A stretch of DNA of 64,000 nt from Candidatus Puniceispirillum sp. (GTDB lineage: Bacteria > Pseudomonadota > Alphaproteobacteria > Puniceispirillales > Puniceispirillaceae): NCBI GenBank assembly GCA_028382965.1, contig JAOEUK010000010.1, positions 1-64,000 on the forward strand, written 5' to 3'. A program made the position numbers and the translations under genes. Below the pieces are notes generated by a model. It worked only from the letters and a program-made list of their open reading frames with translations. It made no database searches and was not told the DNA's origin. Below, in pieces: positions 4,166-13,808 of this stretch (positions are counted from its first letter, which is position 1; the number at the start of each line of letters is the position of its first letter).

Positions 4166-4194
4166 TTGACAACTTTGTTTTAGCGTACTAAAAC
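4166..4194 (+). promoter_or_regulatory. Sigma-70 promoter of the histidine operon
   Basis: TTGACA at 4166-4171 is a perfect -35 box. Exactly 17 bases later TAAAAC (4189-4194) can serve as the -10 box. The start codon of the first operon gene is 43 bases beyond. It is the best promoter match I found in the window. Confidence 0.65.
4177..4194. promoter_or_regulatory. Operator-like palindrome over the -10 box of the histidine promoter
   Basis: GTTTTAGCGTACTAAAAC is a perfect inverted repeat with 7-bp arms and a 4-bp centre. It covers the spacer and the whole -10 element, so a bound protein would block RNA polymerase. The first gene behind it encodes a TrpR-family DNA-binding protein, and TrpR binds similar short CTAG-type half-sites. 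Autoregulation plus control of the histidine genes is the simplest reading; binding itself is inferred. Confidence 0.55.
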
Positions 4195-4236: not shown

Positions 4237-4530
4237 TTGAAACGTAATCAAATAGATACCAATCATGAGGATGAACTTTTTGAAGCAATCCTTGCTTTAA
4301 AGACGTCCAACGAAACTCGCAGCTTTTTTTATGATTTGTGCACGCCAGCTGAACTGGAAGGTCTAGTCGACCGCTGGCGTGTTGCACAGATGTTGGTACA
4401 AAACACGCCTTATAGGAAAATCTCAGAAGAAACAAAAGTTAGTACGGCGACAATTGTGCGTGTCGCACGATTCCTAAATAATGGATTTAATGGCTATAAA
4501 ACGATTATGCAAAGACAGGGTAAGTTATGA
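4237..4530 (+). CDS. TrpR/YerC-family repressor, candidate histidine regulator
   Basis: The 97-residue protein starts at TTG, supported by AAGGGGA six bases upstream. It has the TrpR-type helical fold: FYDLCTPAELEGLVDRW in the N-terminal half and a helix-turn-helix around YRKISEETKVSTATIVRVAR. YerC-type TrpR relatives have been linked to histidine control in Gram-positive bacteria, under the name HisR. Here the gene is the first in the histidine operon, overlaps hisG by ATGA and lies behind an operator-like palindrome. I infer that it represses this operon in response to histidine or a related metabolite. The ligand cannot be read from the sequence. Confidence 0.75.
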   Translation: MKRNQIDTNHEDELFEAILALKTSNETRSFFYDLCTPAELEGLVDRWRVAQMLVQNTPYRKISEETKVSTATIVRVARFLNNGFNGYKTIMQRQGKL

Positions 4531-5417
4531 GTGAAGAAAAACGGCTAAAAATAGCCATTCAAAAATCCGGCAGACTTGCCGACATGTCATTACAGCTGCT
4601 TGAAAAATGTGGTATTTTTCTTGAGAAGAGTCGCGATCAGCTGTTATGCCGTGCGCAGAATTTTCCTTTGGATATATTTTTAGTACGTGATGATGATATT
4701 CCAGCCTTTCTTTCAACAGATGTGTGTCAATTGGGAATTCTTGGGCAGAATGCGCTGCTTGAAAAACAGGCCCTTGGAAACGGTAAGTTTAATGGTCTAA
4801 AACAACTTCTACCGCTTGGTTATGGAAAATGCCGGCTTTCCATCGCTGTGCCGCATGACTTTACTTACGACTCGATTACATCGCTGAAAGGAAAGGTGAT
4901 TGCCACTTCATACAAGGGGCTACTTAGTCAGTACCTTGCTAAGCAAAACATCAAGGCAGACATCGTCACGATGGAAGGTGCAGTTGAAGTGGCACCCCGC
5001 ACCCATCTTGCTGATGTTATTTGTGATCTGGTGTCAACAGGAAATACTTTGACTTCGAATGGGTTGGCTGAGAAGGACGTTATTCTGCACTCCCAAGCTG
5101 TCCTTGCGACAAACCAGATCATGGATTTAGAAATCAAATTGCTAGCAGATAAAATTACATCGCGTATCAAGGCGGTTCTGCGAGCTGAAAACAGCCGCTA
5201 TATCATGCTTAACAGCCCAACTGACAGTCTTGAGGCCATAAAAGCTGTTTTACCTGGGTCACAATCACCAACCGTTATGCCGCTGCAAGGTCGCGATGAT
5301 ATGGTTGCCGTGCATGCGGTCTGTGAGGAGGGAGTCTTCTGGGATACGATGGAAGAGCTGAAGGCCAATGGCGCCAAGTCTATTCTTGTTGTTCCTATCG
5401 AAAAAATGCTGGATTAA
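4527..5417 (+). CDS. hisG: ATP phosphoribosyltransferase, long form
   Basis: The first committed step of histidine synthesis joins PRPP and ATP to give phosphoribosyl-ATP. At 296 residues this is the long HisG type, with two catalytic subdomains and a C-terminal regulatory domain (about 220-296, ending GAKSILVVPIEKML) that normally mediates feedback inhibition by histidine. No HisZ partner is needed. Recognisable motifs are IAIQKSGRL at the N-terminus and DVICDLVSTGNTL in the PRPP loop. Many alphaproteobacteria instead use short HisG with HisZ. It is translationally coupled to the regulator gene (ATGA overlap) and lies four bases before the hisC-hisB fusion. Confidence 0.9.
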   Translation: MSEEKRLKIAIQKSGRLADMSLQLLEKCGIFLEKSRDQLLCRAQNFPLDIFLVRDDDIPAFLSTDVCQLGILGQNALLEKQALGNGKFNGLKQLLPLGYGKCRLSIAVPHDFTYDSITSLKGKVIATSYKGLLSQYLAKQNIKADIVTMEGAVEVAPRTHLADVICDLVSTGNTLTSNGLAEKDVILHSQAVLATNQIMDLEIKLLADKITSRIKAVLRAENSRYIMLNSPTDSLEAIKAVLPGSQSPTVMPLQGRDDMVAVHAVCEEGVFWDTMEELKANGAKSILVVPIEKMLD

Positions 5418-5421
5418 CATC

Positions 5422-7098
5422 ATGACATCTTCTTTAATACCTAACAATACTGGCATTTGCCAGCGTGCGCGTCCCGAAATTTTGGCAATGACTAGTTATA
5501 CGTCGGCAAGGTCACTGCAATTGCCGTCGGCGCAAACAATCTCCTTGGATGCGAATGAATGCGCATTCGAACCATTTGTCGGGTCAAATGGCCTTTCACG
5601 CTATCCATCGCAGCAGCCAGGATTGTTGGTTGACGCGTTTTGCTGTTGGCTGGATGTTTCATCCCGGAATTTAACGATTACCCGCGGTGCGGATGAAGCA
5701 ATTGATTGCCTGATGCGGGCTTTTTGTGTTCCAGCCGTTGATAATGTGGTGATTTGCCCACCAACATTTGGTATGTACGCGCAATCAGCAATGTTGCAAA
5801 GTGTTGCAGTCAATACCGCCATGTTAGACAAGAACTTTGGTCTTGATCTCAATGCCATTGCCAAAGCCGTTGATGATAAGACAAAGATGATTTTTGTTTG
5901 CTCTCCAAACAATCCGACGGGCAATCTTATGGATGCTGCAGCAATCACGACTTTATGCAAGACCTATCAGGATAAGGCGTTAATCGTTGTTGATGAAACC
6001 TATATTGAGTTCAGTGCACAGAAAACAGCCATTGCACAGCTTGATAATTTCACCAATCTAGTGGTGCTTCGCACTCTATCAAAGTCGCATGCTGCAGCTG
6101 GTTTGCGTTGCGGTGCAGCAATTGCGCATTCTGATGTTAGTGTGCTATTAAAAAAAGTATTAGCACCTTATCCGTTGGCTGTACCGGTAATGCAGGCAGC
6201 ATTATTAATCCTAAAACCAGAAAATACAGACAAGCTCGCCAAAAAACGGGCTGATATTATTGTCCGCCGCAATGAGTATGCTGCAATTATGTCTGATCTT
6301 GATGATGTTGTTTCTGTCTTACCATCCGATGCAAATTATCTGTTGTTGCTTGTTCGTGATGCCATGGGTTTGTGTAATCGTGCCCACGAGGCTGGTATTA
6401 TTTTACGGAACCAGTCTCATCAACCGGGCCTAGAAAATGCAGTTCGCATATCTATTGGCTCTAATGATGAGATGCAACAGCTATTAGCGGTTATGAAAGG
6501 AAAAGGCGCACCGGCACATGACACTCAACGTGTCCAATCAATCACCCGCAAAACCAGTGAGACAACAATTTCAGTTACCGTCAATCTGGATAAGACAAGT
6601 CCTGTCAGGATTAATACCGGCATTGGCTTTTACGATCATATGCTGGACCAAATTGCCAAACATGGTGGCTTTTCGCTTGAACTTGACTGTGATGGAGATC
6701 TGCATATTGACCCACACCATTCTGTTGAAGATTGTGCGATTGCCCTTGGGCAGGCTATTCGCTTCGCGCTTGGCGACAAGCGCGGCATAGGACGCTATGG
6801 ATTTATTTTGCCAATGGACGAGTCACTGGTACAGGTTGCGCTTGATTTTGGAGGTAGATTTTACCTTGATTTCAAAGCAGAATTTCCGGAAAGCCATGTT
6901 GGTGACCTGCCATGCGATATGGTGCCACATGTATTCTATTCGCTTGCAGAGCACATGCAGGTCAATTTGCATATCGCAGTAACAGGCAATAATACGCATC
7001 ATATGGTTGAGGCCTGTTTCAAAGGCTTTGGCCGCGCCTTACGACAGGCTATTCGAATTGAAGGAAGCGAAATGCCAAGTACAAAAGGTATTTTATGA
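5422..7098 (+). CDS. hisCB: HisC-HisB fusion: histidinol-phosphate aminotransferase + imidazoleglycerol-phosphate dehydratase
   Basis: One uninterrupted 558-codon frame holds two enzymes. Residues about 1-365 are a class I/II aminotransferase with CSPNNPTG, VVDETYIEF and the PLP lysine Lys221 in RTLSKSHAAAGLRCG. The HisC sequence is close in pattern to enterobacterial HisC (GADEAIDCLMRAFC, CPPTFGMY). Residues about 370-558 are the dehydratase, with GIGFYDHMLDQIAKH, DPHHSVEDCA and TGNNTHHMVE giving the metal-binding histidines. No histidinol-phosphatase domain is present, unlike enterobacterial HisB. The ATG at 5422, four bases after hisG, is chosen over an upstream in-frame codon inside hisG. 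A fusion of these two steps is unusual; the enzymes catalyse steps seven and six of the pathway. Confidence 0.9.
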   Translation: MTSSLIPNNTGICQRARPEILAMTSYTSARSLQLPSAQTISLDANECAFEPFVGSNGLSRYPSQQPGLLVDAFCCWLDVSSRNLTITRGADEAIDCLMRAFCVPAVDNVVICPPTFGMYAQSAMLQSVAVNTAMLDKNFGLDLNAIAKAVDDKTKMIFVCSPNNPTGNLMDAAAITTLCKTYQDKALIVVDETYIEFSAQKTAIAQLDNFTNLVVLRTLSKSHAAAGLRCGAAIAHSDVSVLLKKVLAPYPLAVPVMQAALLILKPENTDKLAKKRADIIVRRNEYAAIMSDLDDVVSVLPSDANYLLLLVRDAMGLCNRAHEAGIILRNQSHQPGLENAVRISIGSNDEMQQLLAVMKGKGAPAHDTQRVQSITRKTSETTISVTVNLDKTSPVRINTGIGFYDHMLDQIAKHGGFSLELDCDGDLHIDPHHSVEDCAIALGQAIRFALGDKRGIGRYGFILPMDESLVQVALDFGGRFYLDFKAEFPESHVGDLPCDMVPHVFYSLAEHMQVNLHIAVTGNNTHHMVEACFKGFGRALRQAIRIEGSEMPSTKGIL

Positions 7099-7107
7099 GA
7101 GTATGTA

Positions 7108-7701
7108 ATGATTGCAATTATTGACAGCGGTGGAGCCAATATCGCGTCGGTTAAATTTGCCCTTGAACGTTTAGGCGCAGATTCGGTTTTGACCGATGAC
7201 ATTGATATTATCCGTTCGGCTAAAAAGGTATTGTTGCCGGGGGTCGGGGCAGCGCCTGTTGCAATGCAACGCTTGCACAATGCTGGACTTGTTGATTGCA
7301 TCCAAAATCTTGAGCAGCCAGTGCTTGGTATCTGCCTTGGCATGCAATTGCTGTTCTCGTGCTCAGCCGAAGGAAATACTCCACTTCTTGGCCACTTTGA
7401 TGCAAGTTGCAATGCTTTTAAGCCCACCAAGCAGAGATCTGTACCACACATGGGCTGGAACCGTCTTGATTTTTGTCATGAACACCCCTTACTTAACGGA
7501 GTAGACAATGGCGCGCATGTGTATTTTGTTCACAGCTATTTTGCGCCGTTAATCCCAGAAACTGTTGCTGCATGTCAATACGGAAATAATTTTACTGCAA
7601 TTGTTGGTGATAAAAATTTCATGGGATGCCAGTTTCACCCCGAACGGTCGGGACCGGTTGGCGCCCGCATATTGCAAAATTTTTTGGAGATACCGTCATG
7701 A
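7108..7701 (+). CDS. hisH: Imidazole glycerol phosphate synthase, glutaminase subunit
   Basis: A class I glutamine amidotransferase of 197 residues that supplies ammonia to HisF. The nucleophile is Cys76 in GICLGMQLLF, and the catalytic His-Glu pair is in CQFHPERSG near the C-terminus. An oxyanion-type PGVGAAP segment is also present. It starts ten bases after the hisCB stop and overlaps hisA by ATGA, so it is translationally coupled. Confidence 0.93.
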   Translation: MIAIIDSGGANIASVKFALERLGADSVLTDDIDIIRSAKKVLLPGVGAAPVAMQRLHNAGLVDCIQNLEQPVLGICLGMQLLFSCSAEGNTPLLGHFDASCNAFKPTKQRSVPHMGWNRLDFCHEHPLLNGVDNGAHVYFVHSYFAPLIPETVAACQYGNNFTAIVGDKNFMGCQFHPERSGPVGARILQNFLEIPS

Positions 7702-8423
7702 TTATTTATCCAGCCATTGACCTAATTGATGGGAATGTTGTGCGCCTGCACAAGGGTGATTTCAACCAATTGACCAAATATGGCAGCGATCCTGTATCAG
7801 TAGCAAAGTCCTATGCAGATTCAGGGGCAAAATGGCTGCATTTGGTCGATCTCGATGGTGCAAAAAACCCAAAAAACAGGCAATTTAGCCTGATAGGTAA
7901 GATCATTGAGGGCAGCGGCCTTAAGGTTCAGACAGGCGGCGGTATACGGTCTTTTGACGATGTAAAAACACTTCTTGGTGCCGGGGCTAGTCGTGTAGTG
8001 ATTGGTAGCCTTGCGGTTAGTGATCCAAAGACAACAAAGGGCATTTTTAATGCTTTTGGGCCCGAGTATATCTGCCTTGCTGCTGATGTTATTTGGCAAA
8101 ATAACGGCTTTTATATCGCAGTTTCTGGGTGGCAAGAGGCCAGCAGCCTTGGCTTGTTCGACTTTATTAAAACATATCAAGATAATGGTTTACGGCACAC
8201 CTTATGCACCGATATTAACCGCGATGGCACCTTGGTTGGATGTAACCGAGACCTTTATCAAACAGTAAAGCAAAAATTTCCTGATTTACAATTGCAGGCA
8301 TCAGGTGGGATTAGCATCCTAAATGATCTGGTGGGATTAACTGCCAATGGTGTAATCATCGGCAAGGCCTTGTATGAGAAACGGTTTACTTTGAAGCAAG
8401 CTTTAGAGACAGTCGAATGCTAA
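7698..8423 (+). CDS. hisA: Phosphoribosylformimino-AICAR ribotide isomerase
   Basis: A TIM-barrel isomerase of 241 residues that opens the ribose of ProFAR. The N-terminal [16 protein letters not shown] carries the catalytic aspartate, and the second half has [11 protein letters not shown]. The phosphate-binding segments QTGGGIRS and ASGGIS are intact. The ATG at 7698 overlapping the hisH stop is chosen; an upstream in-frame codon inside hisH would add 24 unrelated residues. It overlaps hisF by seven bases. Confidence 0.93.
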
Positions 8424-9184
8424 CCAAGCGGATTATAGCCTGCCTAGATGTTAAAGATGGGCGCGTTGTGAAGGGGATTCAGTTTCGCAACCATGTTGAT
8501 ATGGGCGATATCCTTACATTAAGCCAACGCTATGCTGATGAAGGCGTTGACGAGCTAGTGTTTTATGATATCACTGCCAGCAGTGATGGGCGTGTTGTCG
8601 ATAAGAGCTGGGTAAATCAGATTGCCCGTCGAATCAATGTCCCGTTTTGCGTTGCCGGTGGTATACGCAGCATTGAAGATGCTAAAGCCATTTTAAATGA
8701 TGGTGCTGACAAAATCTCAGTGAATTCTCCAGCCTTAGAGCGCCCAGAATTTATATCCGAACTCGCATCAGTGTTTGGCACGCAATGCGTTGTTGCCGGA
8801 ATTGATAGCTGGCGTGAAAATAATAAAATGCAGGTTTATCAATACACTGGTGATGAAACTAAAACAATAAAGTCAAAGCGCAATACAGTGGCTTGGGCGC
8901 AGGAAGTAACTCGGCTCGGGGCTGGTGAAATTGTACTTAATTGCATGAATAATGACGGGGTGCGCCAAGGCTATGACATTGAACAACTTCTCTCTGTACG
9001 TAAAGCAGTTACTGTGCCGGTAATTGCATCTGGTGGAGCCGGTGATTACACCCATTTTGTTGATTTATTTCGTCAAACTGATATTGACGGCGCGCTTGCT
9101 GCATCGGTGTTTCACAGTGGAAAAATTTCCATTCCGAATTTAAAAGCCTATCTTCAAGCAAAATCAATCGAGGTGCGAGTATAG
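8417..9184 (+). CDS. hisF: Imidazole glycerol phosphate synthase, cyclase subunit
   Basis: A TIM barrel of 255 residues that, together with HisH, forms IGP and AICAR. The N-terminus [16 protein letters not shown] carries the catalytic aspartate, [14 protein letters not shown] the second, and CVAGGIRS and IASGGAG are the phosphate sites. It starts inside the end of hisA and stops two bases before hisIE. Confidence 0.95.
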
Positions 9185-9186
9185 CC

Positions 9187-9798
9187 ATGTTAAAGATCAA
9201 CCTTAATCAAATTGCCTGGAAAAAGGGTGATGGCCTTGTTCCTGCAGTAATTCAAAATCCAGATAACAGCCAGGTATTAATGCTTGGCTACATGGATCGG
9301 GCTGCACTAGTCCAGACAATTGACAGCGGCAAAGTAACCTTTTTCAGCAGGTCAAAAAAATGTCTTTGGACAAAGGGAGAAACCTCTGGAAATTGGCTTG
9401 ATTATGTTAGTCTTGAAATTGATTGTGATTGCGATACGATTCTTATTCAGGCACGCCCACAAGGGCCTGTTTGCCATACTGGAATGGTTAGCTGTTTTAA
9501 TGACATCAGCCCAGACCGCACGCTGTTTCTTTCATACCTTACAAAATTAATCGGTGAGCGCCAGGTGGCTATGCCCTCAGGCAGCTACACAACAAGCCTG
9601 TTTAACGAAGGCAAGGCCCGCATTGCTCAAAAGGTTGGAGAAGAGGGGGTCGAACTTGCGATAGCCCGAATGAAGGATGATAAAACTGAAATAGCTAGTG
9701 AGGCAGCAGATTTATTGTTCCACATGATGATATTACTTCAGGATGCTGACTTGACAATAAACGACGCTATCCATGTGCTAGAAACAAGGCATAAATAG
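9187..9798 (+). CDS. hisIE: Bifunctional phosphoribosyl-AMP cyclohydrolase / phosphoribosyl-ATP pyrophosphatase
   Basis: The 203-residue protein fuses HisI (about 1-110) and HisE (about 115-203). HisI motifs are MLGYMDRAALV, FFSRSKKCLWTKGETSGN and DCDCDTILIQARPQGPVCHTG in pieces, with zinc-binding cysteines in DCDCD and PVCHTG. HisE shows KVGEEGVELAIA and ASEAADLLFHM. Such fusions are common in Gammaproteobacteria and Bacteroidetes, while alphaproteobacteria usually keep hisI and hisE apart. It is the last gene of the operon. Confidence 0.92.
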   Translation: MLKINLNQIAWKKGDGLVPAVIQNPDNSQVLMLGYMDRAALVQTIDSGKVTFFSRSKKCLWTKGETSGNWLDYVSLEIDCDCDTILIQARPQGPVCHTGMVSCFNDISPDRTLFLSYLTKLIGERQVAMPSGSYTTSLFNEGKARIAQKVGEEGVELAIARMKDDKTEIASEAADLLFHMMILLQDADLTINDAIHVLETRHK

Positions 9799-10467: not shown

Positions 10468-11529
10468 TTAGTTTTGTAACGCTACAAGTTCCTTAGCTAA
10501 ACGCATGATATCGTTTTTATCAAGCCGGTTTGCCTGAAGAGAGAGAATATCGACTAGGGGACGTGATGCCATTGACCTTGCGTAGGACGGGTCATAGTGC
10601 GTTTCCAGGATAACCTCAACAAAACCATTCCAATTTTCAGCAATAATTGCCTCGTACCACTTGTTAAAGACCTCTGCACTATAACGTCGGCGCAGACTAG
10701 ATAAGAGCTGCATTAAATTATCACTCTTTTCAATAATATGTCGATAATCACGCTGCAGAAAGGCAACACGAGCCTCAAAAGGAGCATTAATTGAAATCCG
10801 GCGTGCTTGGCGCATCGACGCCCATAATGCTGATGGGATATGGATTTGACCAATTTTATTGCTTTCAGATTCAATAAAAACTGGCCGTGTAATATCAAAT
10901 GCTTGTAAACAAGTATTAAGACGTGATTCAAAAAGACGTTGAGCAGGTTGCGGCGACCCCGGCTCCCCACCAAGAAGCGAACCGCGATGATTGGCCAACC
11001 TTTCCAAATCAAGAACCTGAGCACCCATGCCGGCAGCAGCCCGTAAAATATGGGTTTTGGCAGTGCCAGTTGGTCCGGATAATACAATTAATTGAAACTG
11101 CCAAGGTAGATAGTCAAGTCCGTCTAACACAGTCTTTCGATAGGCTTTATAGCCACCAGCAATAACTGTGCTGTGCCATCCAATATCACTGAAGATTTTG
11201 GCCATTGCACAACTACGTTTTCCACCACGCCAACAATATATAAGGGGCCGCCAATTTCGATCCTTTCCCACTAGCTTAGTCTGCAGGTGCTCGGCGATAT
11301 TCTGCGCAACCAAGGCTGCACCAGTCCGTTTTGCCTCAAATGGATTAATTTTTTTGTATATTGTACCAACCAAAGCGCGCTGCGCATCTTTTAGAACCGG
11401 TAAATTAATTGCATTCGGCATATGATCGTCCAAGAATTCCGACGGTGATCGCACATCAATAATACTGTCAAAGGTGGCATCTTTGACTAGGCTTAATTTC
11501 GGATCCATACGAGTGATCGGTGCAGACAT
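10468..11529 (-). CDS. mnmH: tRNA 2-selenouridine synthase
   Basis: SelU/YbbB replaces sulfur with selenium at wobble position 34 of tRNAs for Lys, Glu and Gln, using selenophosphate. The 353-residue protein has an N-terminal rhodanese domain with active-site Cys99 in YCWRGGKRS. A C-terminal P-loop domain follows, with GPTGTAKT at 152-159. Both are characteristic of the family, and the length is normal. It lies 17 bases downstream of selD on the same strand, so selenophosphate maker and user are cotranscribed. No selA, selB or tRNA-Sec was seen, which suggests selenium is used here for tRNA rather than selenocysteine. Confidence 0.93.
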   Translation of the reverse strand: MSAPITRMDPKLSLVKDATFDSIIDVRSPSEFLDDHMPNAINLPVLKDAQRALVGTIYKKINPFEAKRTGAALVAQNIAEHLQTKLVGKDRNWRPLIYCWRGGKRSCAMAKIFSDIGWHSTVIAGGYKAYRKTVLDGLDYLPWQFQLIVLSGPTGTAKTHILRAAAGMGAQVLDLERLANHRGSLLGGEPGSPQPAQRLFESRLNTCLQAFDITRPVFIESESNKIGQIHIPSALWASMRQARRISINAPFEARVAFLQRDYRHIIEKSDNLMQLLSSLRRRYSAEVFNKWYEAIIAENWNGFVEVILETHYDPSYARSMASRPLVDILSLQANRLDKNDIMRLAKELVALQN

Positions 11530-11546
11530 TAATTTTTTCTCACGTT

Positions 11547-13808
11547 CTATGATTCAATGATTTTGTCGCTTAATTGAACAGATTCGTTATTGAAATCAAG
11601 ATGGCCAATAATTGCAGCATTATGTCCATCACTTTTTAAAAGTTCTACAAGGTGCTCCGCATTCCTGCGCGTTAATACGCCCAGTAAGCCACCACTTGTT
11701 TGTGGGTCAAACAGGGCTTCAGCATGGGCCGTAAATTCTGTATTTTCACTGAGCCTTTGGCTATCAATGACAACTGCGTCACAATTCTGATTATGTAGGC
11801 TGGAACGAACTCCAGATGAAAACAGTTGTGCCGCTCCAGCTAACAATGGTAAATAGCGCAAATTTAGAACACAGCCTTTTGCCCCAACACGCCTACTTAG
11901 GTTCAATGCATGCCGGGCAAGACCAAATCCAGTAATATCAGTTGCTGCGATCACATTTGTGCTATCAAAGTGCTTCGCAGCAAGCCGATTAGACTTAGCC
12001 ATCTGTAAAATAGCAGATTCAACCCACTTCGCCTTGGCAATCAGTTGCATATTAGCTGACATAATAACACCAGTGCCAATTGGTTTTGTTATAACAAGAA
12101 AAGCATCACCAGGCCTAGCCATGGCAGGCTTATCATTTTTTGCGTAACCTGTTACCGAAAATCCTACTGATAAAGTGCCCCCCTCACTGGTATGTCCGCC
12201 ATTTAACTTTACCCCTGACTCACTTAAGGCCAGAAGGCCTCCTGCAAGAATTTGGGTTAACTGATTTGTCTGTATTGACAGACTAGCTTCAGGCAAGTTG
12301 ATTATTGCTAGTGCCGAAGTTGGTTTTGCCATCACTGCATATAAATCGCTTAGTGCATGAAATGCTGCAATACGGCCCAACAAAAAAGGATCAGAAACAA
12401 TTTCAGATAAGACATCTACAGACTGTACAAGATTGTGGCCATGCGGCGGTCCAACCATTACTGCAGCATCAGTTTCAATGCCAATATCAGGAAGAAATAC
12501 TGGATCAGCGCCGGCCAAACGGGCAATGTTTGTTGCATCCTCTAGAGCAGACTCCAGTACCTTGTGCCCTGTCTTAGCTGCACAGCCAAGGCATCGCATC
12601 GCCGCAAAAGCCGGATCACTTCTATGTAAATCAGTTGGCAAAAAAATACCTTGGAATGCAACTGGAGCAGGAACTGTTGGCATTAATAGATTCTGATATT
12701 TTTCCATAAATCGTCGATCAATCCAGTATTTTAATTTCAGAAAAATTTTTGCCTTAAAACCGAAGTGTCCCCAGGAAGCGATTGCACTCCCATCTGATGT
12801 CCCTATAATAGCTAAGTAACGCTTTTGCGCGCTCCAACCCACTAAACGTTTTCCAAATAGTTTTTTACGTAAATTTTTTGACAAAACTGCCCCTGCACGA
12901 ACGGCAAAGACGCCAGCTTTTGGGCGCGGGTTGTTAATTACTGTTGCAATATCACCAGCAGCAAAAATATGGGGGTGGCTTGTAGACTGTAAAGTTGGAT
13001 GAACCTCAATAAACCCATTCTTATCAAGTTCAAGCGCGGATGACTTTAACCATTCTGGGGGCCTAACAGCAGATACTAAAAAACAAGTTTCATAGTTTGC
13101 CGTCTCCTCATTGTCAAAATATAAAGTTCCCTTATCAATTTTTTTAACAGCACGTTTTAGTTGAATTTTTATACCAGCATCGTGGAGAGCCTTCAGCATT
13201 AAATGGCTAGCTTTCGATGACATTTGTGACATCAATGTACTAGTCCGACTATAAAGAGTGATTTGTGGAGCCACACCATGGTAATGCCAGCGTTTATTTA
13301 GGGCTAAAACTAGCTCACATCCTGCTGCACCCCCTCCAATTACAGCAATTTTTTTAGGCAATCCTGATTCTAATAAGGAATGAAACAGAGCCTGAAAATT
13401 GGAAATTGGTTTTACTGGAATTACATTTTCTTTAGCACCGGTGATTGCGCTCAAATCAGGCTGCCCACCAATGTTAATTGACAAAAGATCAAAGTGGAGT
13501 GGCGGCCGATTATTAAAAAACAACTTATGCCTATCTGCATCAATCCCTGTGCAAGTCGAAACAACAAGCCGGGCACCAGCAAACTGGGCGAGGTGAGCAA
13601 GATCAATATGAATTTCATCATCATTCCACTTTCCCTCTACATATCCTGGAAGCATTCCAGAATAGGGAGTGAGATAATCAGAAGTGACAATCGTTAAACG
13701 TAGGCCTGGAACAGGAAACATCGCGAAGTTCTTGATGGCAGAGACTTGTGCATGTCCACCACCTAGAAAAACCAGTTCTCCTAAAGTAGGTGTGCTAGGT
13801 TTTTTCAT
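11547..13808 (-). CDS. selD: NDH-2-like FAD oxidoreductase fused to selenide, water dikinase
   Basis: This 753-residue fusion has an N-terminal pyridine-nucleotide disulfide oxidoreductase fold (about 1-375), with FAD and NAD(P) Rossmann motifs FLGGGHAQ and AVIGGGAAGCEL and the second FAD motif FAAGDIA. The C-terminal part (about 395-753) is selenophosphate synthetase. The motif CLGCAAKTG aligns Cys409 and Lys412 with Escherichia coli SelD Cys17 and Lys20; later motifs are GGHTSEGGTLSVG and DITGFGL. SelD makes selenophosphate from selenide and ATP. The oxidoreductase may keep selenium reduced or deliver it, which is inference. Such fusions are known in several bacterial groups. It lies just upstream of mnmH. 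Confidence 0.9.
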   Translation of the reverse strand: MKKPSTPTLGELVFLGGGHAQVSAIKNFAMFPVPGLRLTIVTSDYLTPYSGMLPGYVEGKWNDDEIHIDLAHLAQFAGARLVVSTCTGIDADRHKLFFNNRPPLHFDLLSINIGGQPDLSAITGAKENVIPVKPISNFQALFHSLLESGLPKKIAVIGGGAAGCELVLALNKRWHYHGVAPQITLYSRTSTLMSQMSSKASHLMLKALHDAGIKIQLKRAVKKIDKGTLYFDNEETANYETCFLVSAVRPPEWLKSSALELDKNGFIEVHPTLQSTSHPHIFAAGDIATVINNPRPKAGVFAVRAGAVLSKNLRKKLFGKRLVGWSAQKRYLAIIGTSDGSAIASWGHFGFKAKIFLKLKYWIDRRFMEKYQNLLMPTVPAPVAFQGIFLPTDLHRSDPAFAAMRCLGCAAKTGHKVLESALEDATNIARLAGADPVFLPDIGIETDAAVMVGPPHGHNLVQSVDVLSEIVSDPFLLGRIAAFHALSDLYAVMAKPTSALAIINLPEASLSIQTNQLTQILAGGLLALSESGVKLNGGHTSEGGTLSVGFSVTGYAKNDKPAMARPGDAFLVITKPIGTGVIMSANMQLIAKAKWVESAILQMAKSNRLAAKHFDSTNVIAATDITGFGLARHALNLSRRVGAKGCVLNLRYLPLLAGAAQLFSSGVRSSLHNQNCDAVVIDSQRLSENTEFTAHAEALFDPQTSGGLLGVLTRRNAEHLVELLKSDGHNAAIIGHLDFNNESVQLSDKIIES

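Follow-up and report, generated by a model that had tools for sequence, protein, structure and literature searches.

Known histidine gene fusions and the hisC-hisB locus

In histidine biosynthesis, the hisIE, hisNB, HIS4 and HIS7 fusions all place several steps of the pathway on one chain, as does the gene described here. The closest described system is the bifunctional HisNB (E. coli HisB type, NF003937), in which a second histidine enzyme is likewise found at the N-terminus of the imidazole-glycerol phosphate dehydratase (IGPD). The N-terminal partner differs, being a HAD phosphatase (step 8) in HisNB and HisC (step 7) in the present protein. According to the parts of the literature available to us, HisNB is held to have formed in gammaproteobacteria (PMC8305728; PMC3896937) and might have spread by transfer (PMC8305728). 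The available sections of a 2007 survey and of a 2023 review do not list hisC among the fused his genes; for histidine, hisIE is named in the accessible part of a 2016 fusion survey, and HisIE and HisA/F fusions are named in that of a 2024 archaeal survey. We found no paper describing a HisC-HisB fusion among the open-access papers searched, and domain databases may well list the architecture. The string “histidin” is absent from the main text of two SAR116 genome papers.

The window (the whole stretch of DNA analysed, 64,000 nucleotides from Candidatus Puniceispirillum sp., contig JAOEUK010000010.1) contains the fused gene hisC~hisB at 5422..7098 of the forward strand, as identified from the ORF list, Pfam, NCBIfam and translation. 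The first-pass annotation had described HisC and HisB as a single 558-residue frame, which proved correct: positions 5422-7095 translate without an internal stop and the stop codon occupies 7096-7098, with the two remaining reading frames showing stops around the hisC/hisB junction. The ORF list opens the fused frame at 5368 (576 aa); since this position falls within hisG, 5422 is the better start.

The HisC domain (residues 12-359; 5455..6498, forward strand) was delimited by NCBIfam and by alignment to the stand-alone HisC of PDB 1fg3, in which it aligns with residues 6-352. It passed the TIGR01141 hisC cut-off at full length (residues 17-359, 292.3 vs. 276.55 bits) and has all eight checked positions, Y61, N164, D191, Y194, S220, K221, R229 and R342, which align with E. 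coli Y55, N157, D184, Y187, S213, K214, R222 and R335 and which we take to be the PLP lysine and substrate residues. Whereas stand-alone HisC ends with a stop, the fused HisC continues into a linker (residues 360-368; 6499..6525, forward strand), the fastest-diverging part by dN, and then into the IGPD (HisB) domain (residues 369-558; 6526..7095, forward strand; Pfam, NCBIfam and alignment). The latter passed the cut-offs of NF002111 HisB (residues 369-558, 253.3 vs. 231 bits) and PF00475 (IGPD, 202.4 vs. 27 bits), and 13/13 checked positions were present in the alignment, presumably the conserved His/Glu ligands, Arg, and Ser/Lys near the C-terminus. Pfam placed the aminotransferase class I/II match at residues 81-356 and the IGPD match at 399-540. 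Nearly all checked positions of both domains were invariant in a 24-row alignment of fused proteins.

The best NCBIfam match of the fused protein was to the IGPD part of HisNB (292.9 bits, below the NF003937 cut-off of 443), this profile being matched only at positions 164-355 of 355. The phosphatase domain of HisB had been called absent, and indeed no HAD/DDDD family was found among the Pfam and NCBIfam matches listed (for NCBIfam, the best 25 of 101). IGPD occurs once in the genome, within the fused gene, which is also the genome's only match above the hisC cut-off (next best, 115 bits). The IGPD and HisC steps are consecutive in the established histidine pathway, in agreement with the same annotation.

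The gene run in the window is yerC-hisG-[hisC~hisB]-hisH-hisA-hisF-hisIE, with all genes on the forward strand and the neighbours of the fused gene assigned from the ORF list, Pfam and NCBIfam. The operon starts with a yerC/hisR-like TrpR-family regulator (4237..4530) and the long form of hisG (4527..5417), the fused gene beginning four bases after the latter, and continues with hisH (7108..7701), hisA (7698..8423, a start chosen in our analysis; the ORF list starts at 7626), hisF (8417..9184) and hisIE (9187..9798). Sequence comparison revealed a palindrome, TTTTAGCGTACTAAAA (4178..4193, no strand assigned), which lies downstream of a TTGACA box and is a candidate HisR operator. Of 10 loci compared, the four closest have a similar palindrome upstream, accompanied in three of them by a TTGACA box; promoter and terminator scans gave results at chance level. 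hisD is absent from this operon, and two HisD-family matches are found on other contigs of the genome (G000:C7:5893-7110 and G000:C12:183977-185203; 547 and 445 bits). Elsewhere in the window (10468-13808), a rhodanese-type protein, presumably selenouridine synthase-like, adjoins an oxidoreductase joined to another domain, which we take to be selenophosphate synthetase-like.

Authenticity and distribution of the fusion

The HisC-HisB fusion is genuine and no assembly error. Reads showing a stop or frameshift at the junction had been proposed as its refutation; in the window and in eight sequences of its own genus, the frame stays open across the junction. A single stop-to-stop frame covers HisC and IGPD in 30 of the 80 loci from the named genome collection (the best 80 of at least 590 relatives), with 5-20 residues separating the aligned HisC and IGPD parts in the fused ones. 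The in-frame junction was also found in 20 genomes of the window's family. These cases include G004 and G020, each a genome in one contig, and the Sphingomonas sediminicola chromosome, titled complete. Because independent assemblies carry the in-frame junction, a sequencing or assembly artefact is refuted and, as an account of the junction, scarcely conceivable; an artefact or true frameshift does occur elsewhere, in the apparent fusion of genome G791, and there is none in the window.

When compared with the window, the IGPD part gave dN/dS values of 0.03-0.05 in 8/8 own-genus pairs. For the HisC part the values were 0.06-0.07 in three of the eight pairs, synonymous change being saturated in the remaining five. 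The highest dN of the fused protein in these eight relatives was that of the linker.

The fusion is common to many alphaproteobacteria, yet patchy. In the window's family (SAR116, judging by the nearest named relatives), 20 of 37 genomes were fused and 14 of 37 had a separate HisB, while three (G003, G006 and G010) lacked an IGPD match among the matches listed. Like the less complete G003 and G006, G010, which is of the window's genus and 98% complete, could be a histidine auxotroph or have missing contigs. Within the class sample (385 genomes, 344 with any match), we found 9 full and 4 partial fusions, 13 altogether, among the matches listed; the partial cases comprise a degenerate HisC part in G336 and G123, a contig end that cuts G148, and a remnant in G146. 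With MAG taxon labels taken as deposited, the nearest named loci among the best 80 of at least 590 were SAR116/Puniceispirillum and MAGs labelled Alphaproteobacteria (64-81% identity over the best segment), followed by MAGs labelled Alphaproteobacteria, Rhodobacteraceae or Micavibrio (55-57%, best segment) and then by Sphingomonas, Sphingosinicella, Sphingorhabdus, Sphingomicrobium, Peiella and a Brevundimonas MAG (43-46%). The first-pass annotation had supposed the fusion to be uncommon and had named many known examples as a ground for refuting it. This supposition was mistaken: dozens of alphaproteobacterial genomes have the same architecture, so that such examples do in part exist.

Two genomes outside the class had a match spanning both domains in the phylum sample (398 genomes), G791 and G723, among the matches listed. 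G791 was considered as a second independent fusion with a 594-residue frame and was rejected as a frameshift read-through, because its apparent HisC C-terminus lies in another frame and has its own stop before hisB. Joining G791 to the alphaproteobacterial fused rows was also rejected by the AU test (p = 3.15e-45). G723 was rejected since it has two separate frames, and G787 and G743, in which one tabulated frame length (716-786) covers hisC and hisB, showed a stop between the genes upon translation. Such a shared length was tabulated for several HisNB genomes and is unreliable for some; all fused assignments were made from stop-to-stop frames and are hence independent of it. The HisC part of locus L045 is interrupted by an N gap and a frame break, and this locus was counted neither for nor against fusion.

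The frame extends further in two Sphingomonas loci. No stop separates HisD, HisC and IGPD in L019 (7024-10662, labelled Sphingomonas parva) and L027 (7261-10638, labelled S. deserti), which would make these products candidate trifunctional enzymes with steps 6, 7 and 9-10 on one chain. In a Balneolales MAG (L076, 1143-3683), HisD and HisC share one frame; in its HisB frame, IGPD is preceded by about 154 residues with no HisN match.

Probable descent of the IGPD part and candidate resident histidinol phosphatases

Plain alphaproteobacterial HisB belongs to the same family as the fused IGPD; in the IGPD tree, for which the domains were thinned to 101 rows, a 100/100 branch lies between the two. 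This branch separates the fused proteins and HisNB from plain HisB, and the plain HisB of the window's own family falls on its far side from the fused rows. The number of aligned residues was mostly 194-198 in plain HisB rows and 187-194 in most fused and HisNB rows. The near side comprised 37 fused rows, 24 HisNB and four rows scored “B,” namely the G146 remnant, the gapped L045 and two Balneolota HisB. One clade (84/89, not starred) united all 37 fused rows with L045 and the G146 remnant, and the fused rows grouped with the non-Bacteroidota HisNB at 99/89.

The fused gene occupies the same place as HisNB within the same operon order. Most fused operons have the order of those in which hisN~hisB follows hisC, which were found in named Gammaproteobacteria, Bacteroidota and Serinicoccus and in further Pseudomonadota outside the class, and correspond to the HisNB operons L033, L197 and L208-L210 minus HisN. 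The exceptions are fused operons in which hisD is missing (SAR116) or downstream (L010, L029); in the fused genome G365, hisHAF look native.

The likeliest reading of these sequence comparisons is that the fused IGPD derives from a HisNB whose HisN part was lost, in one event or perhaps two. We consider it probable that an acquired hisC-hisNB operon lost a HisN redundant with the resident IMPase-type HisN, leaving a bifunctional HisC-IGPD as its product. The incoming operon would have been arranged hisG-hisD-hisC-[hisN~hisB]-hisH-hisA-hisF-hisIE. Once it was in alphaproteobacteria, a deletion would have removed the HAD phosphatase segment that separated hisC from the dehydratase part, presumably since an IMPase-type histidinol phosphatase was already present in the hosts. 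The analysis itself shows the architecture, the intact residues, the purifying selection, the operon order, the tree position relative to plain HisB and the candidate phosphatase genes, from which the deletion and its cause are inferred.

HisNB and HisC-HisB might instead be independent fusions, the latter formed when the loss of a stop codon joined an adjacent hisC and a HisN-less hisB, HisN never having been present. With IGPD alone the AU test is compatible with such a course, as it rejected neither HisNB as a single clade without the fused rows (p = 0.192) nor fused plus plain HisB vs. HisNB (p = 0.114). The linkers also favour it, because a HisN remnant was sought there and nothing convincing was found, and so do the two Balneolota HisB without recognisable HisN, which branch among HisNB in the IGPD tree, so that HisN-less forms exist near the base. 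However, HisNB was not one clade on two concatenations: HisNB as a single clade without the fused rows was rejected on IGPD+HisH+HisA+HisF (p = 1.4e-38; 58 hand-picked rows, 21 with odd composition) and on HisC+IGPD (p = 0.0064; 47 hand-picked rows, those with degenerate HisC omitted), in tests that were chosen after the trees had been inspected. G365 was omitted from the four-gene tree on account of its native-looking hisHAF, and the alphaproteobacterial HisNB of G166 shifts position between trees (L132 in the IGPD tree, L161 in the four-gene tree). Moreover, no adjacent hisC and plain hisB of the fused lineage was found among the annotated loci, the nearest to such a pair being Balneolota pairs with an N-terminal extension of their own. 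Independent fusion thus seems rather unlikely to us.

If HisN loss is the origin, loss and fusion may have taken place at least twice, in a SAR116-Micavibrio group and in a sphingomonad group, which we hold as a tentative sub-case. The four-gene tree splits the fused rows (p = 0.068 for one clade) and the HisC+IGPD tree has two supported fused groups, whereas the fused rows form the single clade mentioned above on IGPD alone, and one clade is compatible with HisC+IGPD (p = 0.357).

Candidates for another histidinol phosphatase were found in the fused genomes. The best TIGR02067 (HisN) match scored 229.6-293 bits in the 22 fused genomes tested, including five of genus g80 and G146, and 220-272 bits in 10/10 unfused relatives, while G166, the sole HisNB-carrying alphaproteobacterium tested, reached 106 bits. 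Twenty HisNB genomes outside the class gave 143-228 bits, 3/20 being above 200, in a comparison by score; 12 of these have the HisN domain by BLAST and 8 were assigned from the tabulated frame lengths, unreliable for some. As 27 of the 33 genomes tested fall below the TIGR02067 cut-off of 275.15 bits, we have examined the HolPase motif of the candidates. In the available part of the source, motif 5 with its aspartate is described as important for histidinol phosphatase activity (PMC5516325).

The motif-5 aspartate was present in 28 of the 29 loci L211-L239, the exception being L225, and in L115. In the window's genome, the top-scoring L114 (248 bits) lacks this aspartate and was set aside in favour of L115 (219 bits), which reads GGDCHNY; both score below 275.15. 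The best match of G192 is L225, and a second copy bears the motif as YGGDAYNY (170 bits); this IMPase-type HisN is located between hisD and the fused gene inside the his operon (L149, 10264-10920). With L115 and the G192 second copy, a motif-bearing candidate is found in all 21 fused genomes examined (G020 left out), the scores in the window's genome and G192 falling within the 143-228 range of the 20 HisNB genomes. A TIGR01656 match in the window's genome (C1:215768) is presumably a GmhB-type phosphatase. HisN orthologues are also reported for many gammaproteobacteria with HisNB (PMC5516325, in the part available), so redundancy by itself does not force HisN loss.

Channelling, structure and the lysine-less variant

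IGPD is known as a 24-mer and HisC forms dimers. In the fused protein, step 6, the dehydration of imidazole-glycerol phosphate, would fall to the IGPD domain and step 7, transamination of the product to histidinol phosphate, to the HisC domain, with an assembly that may combine an IGPD 24-mer and HisC dimers. The AlphaFold2 model showed two folded domains (mean pLDDT 85.8, pTM 0.68), the weak stretches being 361-370 (pLDDT 66), some of the N-terminal HisC region (31-60) and the very end of the chain. The fused protein matched 43 PDB sequences, the best stretch of each being confined to one domain; the IGPD entries 7oj5 and 6ezm among them have 24 chains each. Each chain would thus carry two active sites that work independently and are made 1:1.

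Selection for channelling the IGPD product, an enol ketonising to imidazole-acetol phosphate, to the HisC site is an improbable reason for the fusion. Ketonisation of the enol is reported to need no enzyme (PMC3896937, in the part available), so quick capture by HisC could matter. The steps are consecutive, the fusion has been retained across divergent lineages and both domains are under purifying selection in the window's genus, all of which would suit channelling. Against this, the linker is short and variable, with low pLDDT over 361-370, and a pTM of 0.68 does not fix how the domains are placed in the monomer model. Two lineages in which the HisC part has lost its lysine or shrunk to a remnant argue in the same direction.

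The first is genus g80 of family f67 (L152, L153, L194, L195 and L196), whose HisC-like part has 278-286 residues in 5/5 genomes. In this part K221 is replaced by Leu, Y194 by Leu, Ala or Pro, and N164 by Ser or Thr, whereas the IGPD part retains the 13 checked positions. The fused frame is open in all five genomes, each of which has a separate full hisC (296-312 bits). The dN/dS values were 0.15-0.51 for the HisC-like part vs. 0.09-0.16 for IGPD (10 pairs each). The predicted model of one g80 protein kept both folds (mean pLDDT 83.9), and Foldseek matched it to IGPD and HisC structures. The second is G146 (L155, about 8500-9700), in which IGPD is preceded by a stretch of ~200 residues without a HisC match, a mere remnant of the HisC part; its separate hisC (G146:C5:303455) scored 272 bits, under the cut-off. 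Because g80 and G146 keep a fused HisC part alongside a separate hisC, the attachment outlives HisC catalysis, an argument against explaining the fusion in general by channelling. In three divergent fused HisC parts (L147, L148 and L149), the column of E. coli N157 has Ala, Ala and Ser, respectively, the lysine column is kept, and the NPTG motif was not found.

The g80 and G146 proteins hint at a structural role of the HisC part, and slow decay fits too. It is conceivable, if unlikely, that the fusion builds a two-enzyme particle with an IGPD 24-mer core and HisC dimers, in which the HisC fold would have gained a further function apart from catalysis, in assembly or regulation. Such a particle would explain the lysine-less, folded HisC of g80 and the further fusing up to HisD-HisC-IGPD in Sphingomonas. 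Under the origin by HisN loss, history accounts for the juxtaposition of HisC and IGPD without any channelling advantage, and the benefit of the fusion is likely to be co-expression at a fixed stoichiometry.

If this account is true, hisC would be added to the list of fusing his genes, and the case would show that a new enzyme pair can arise from redundant domains once an operon has been transferred, with no need of selection for channelling. Automatic annotation may overlook hisC or hisB at such loci, or label a dead HisC part active. The natural variants, with a live HisC, a lysine-less HisC, a HisC remnant or an added HisD, make it testable in laboratory strains whether fusing consecutive enzymes matters.
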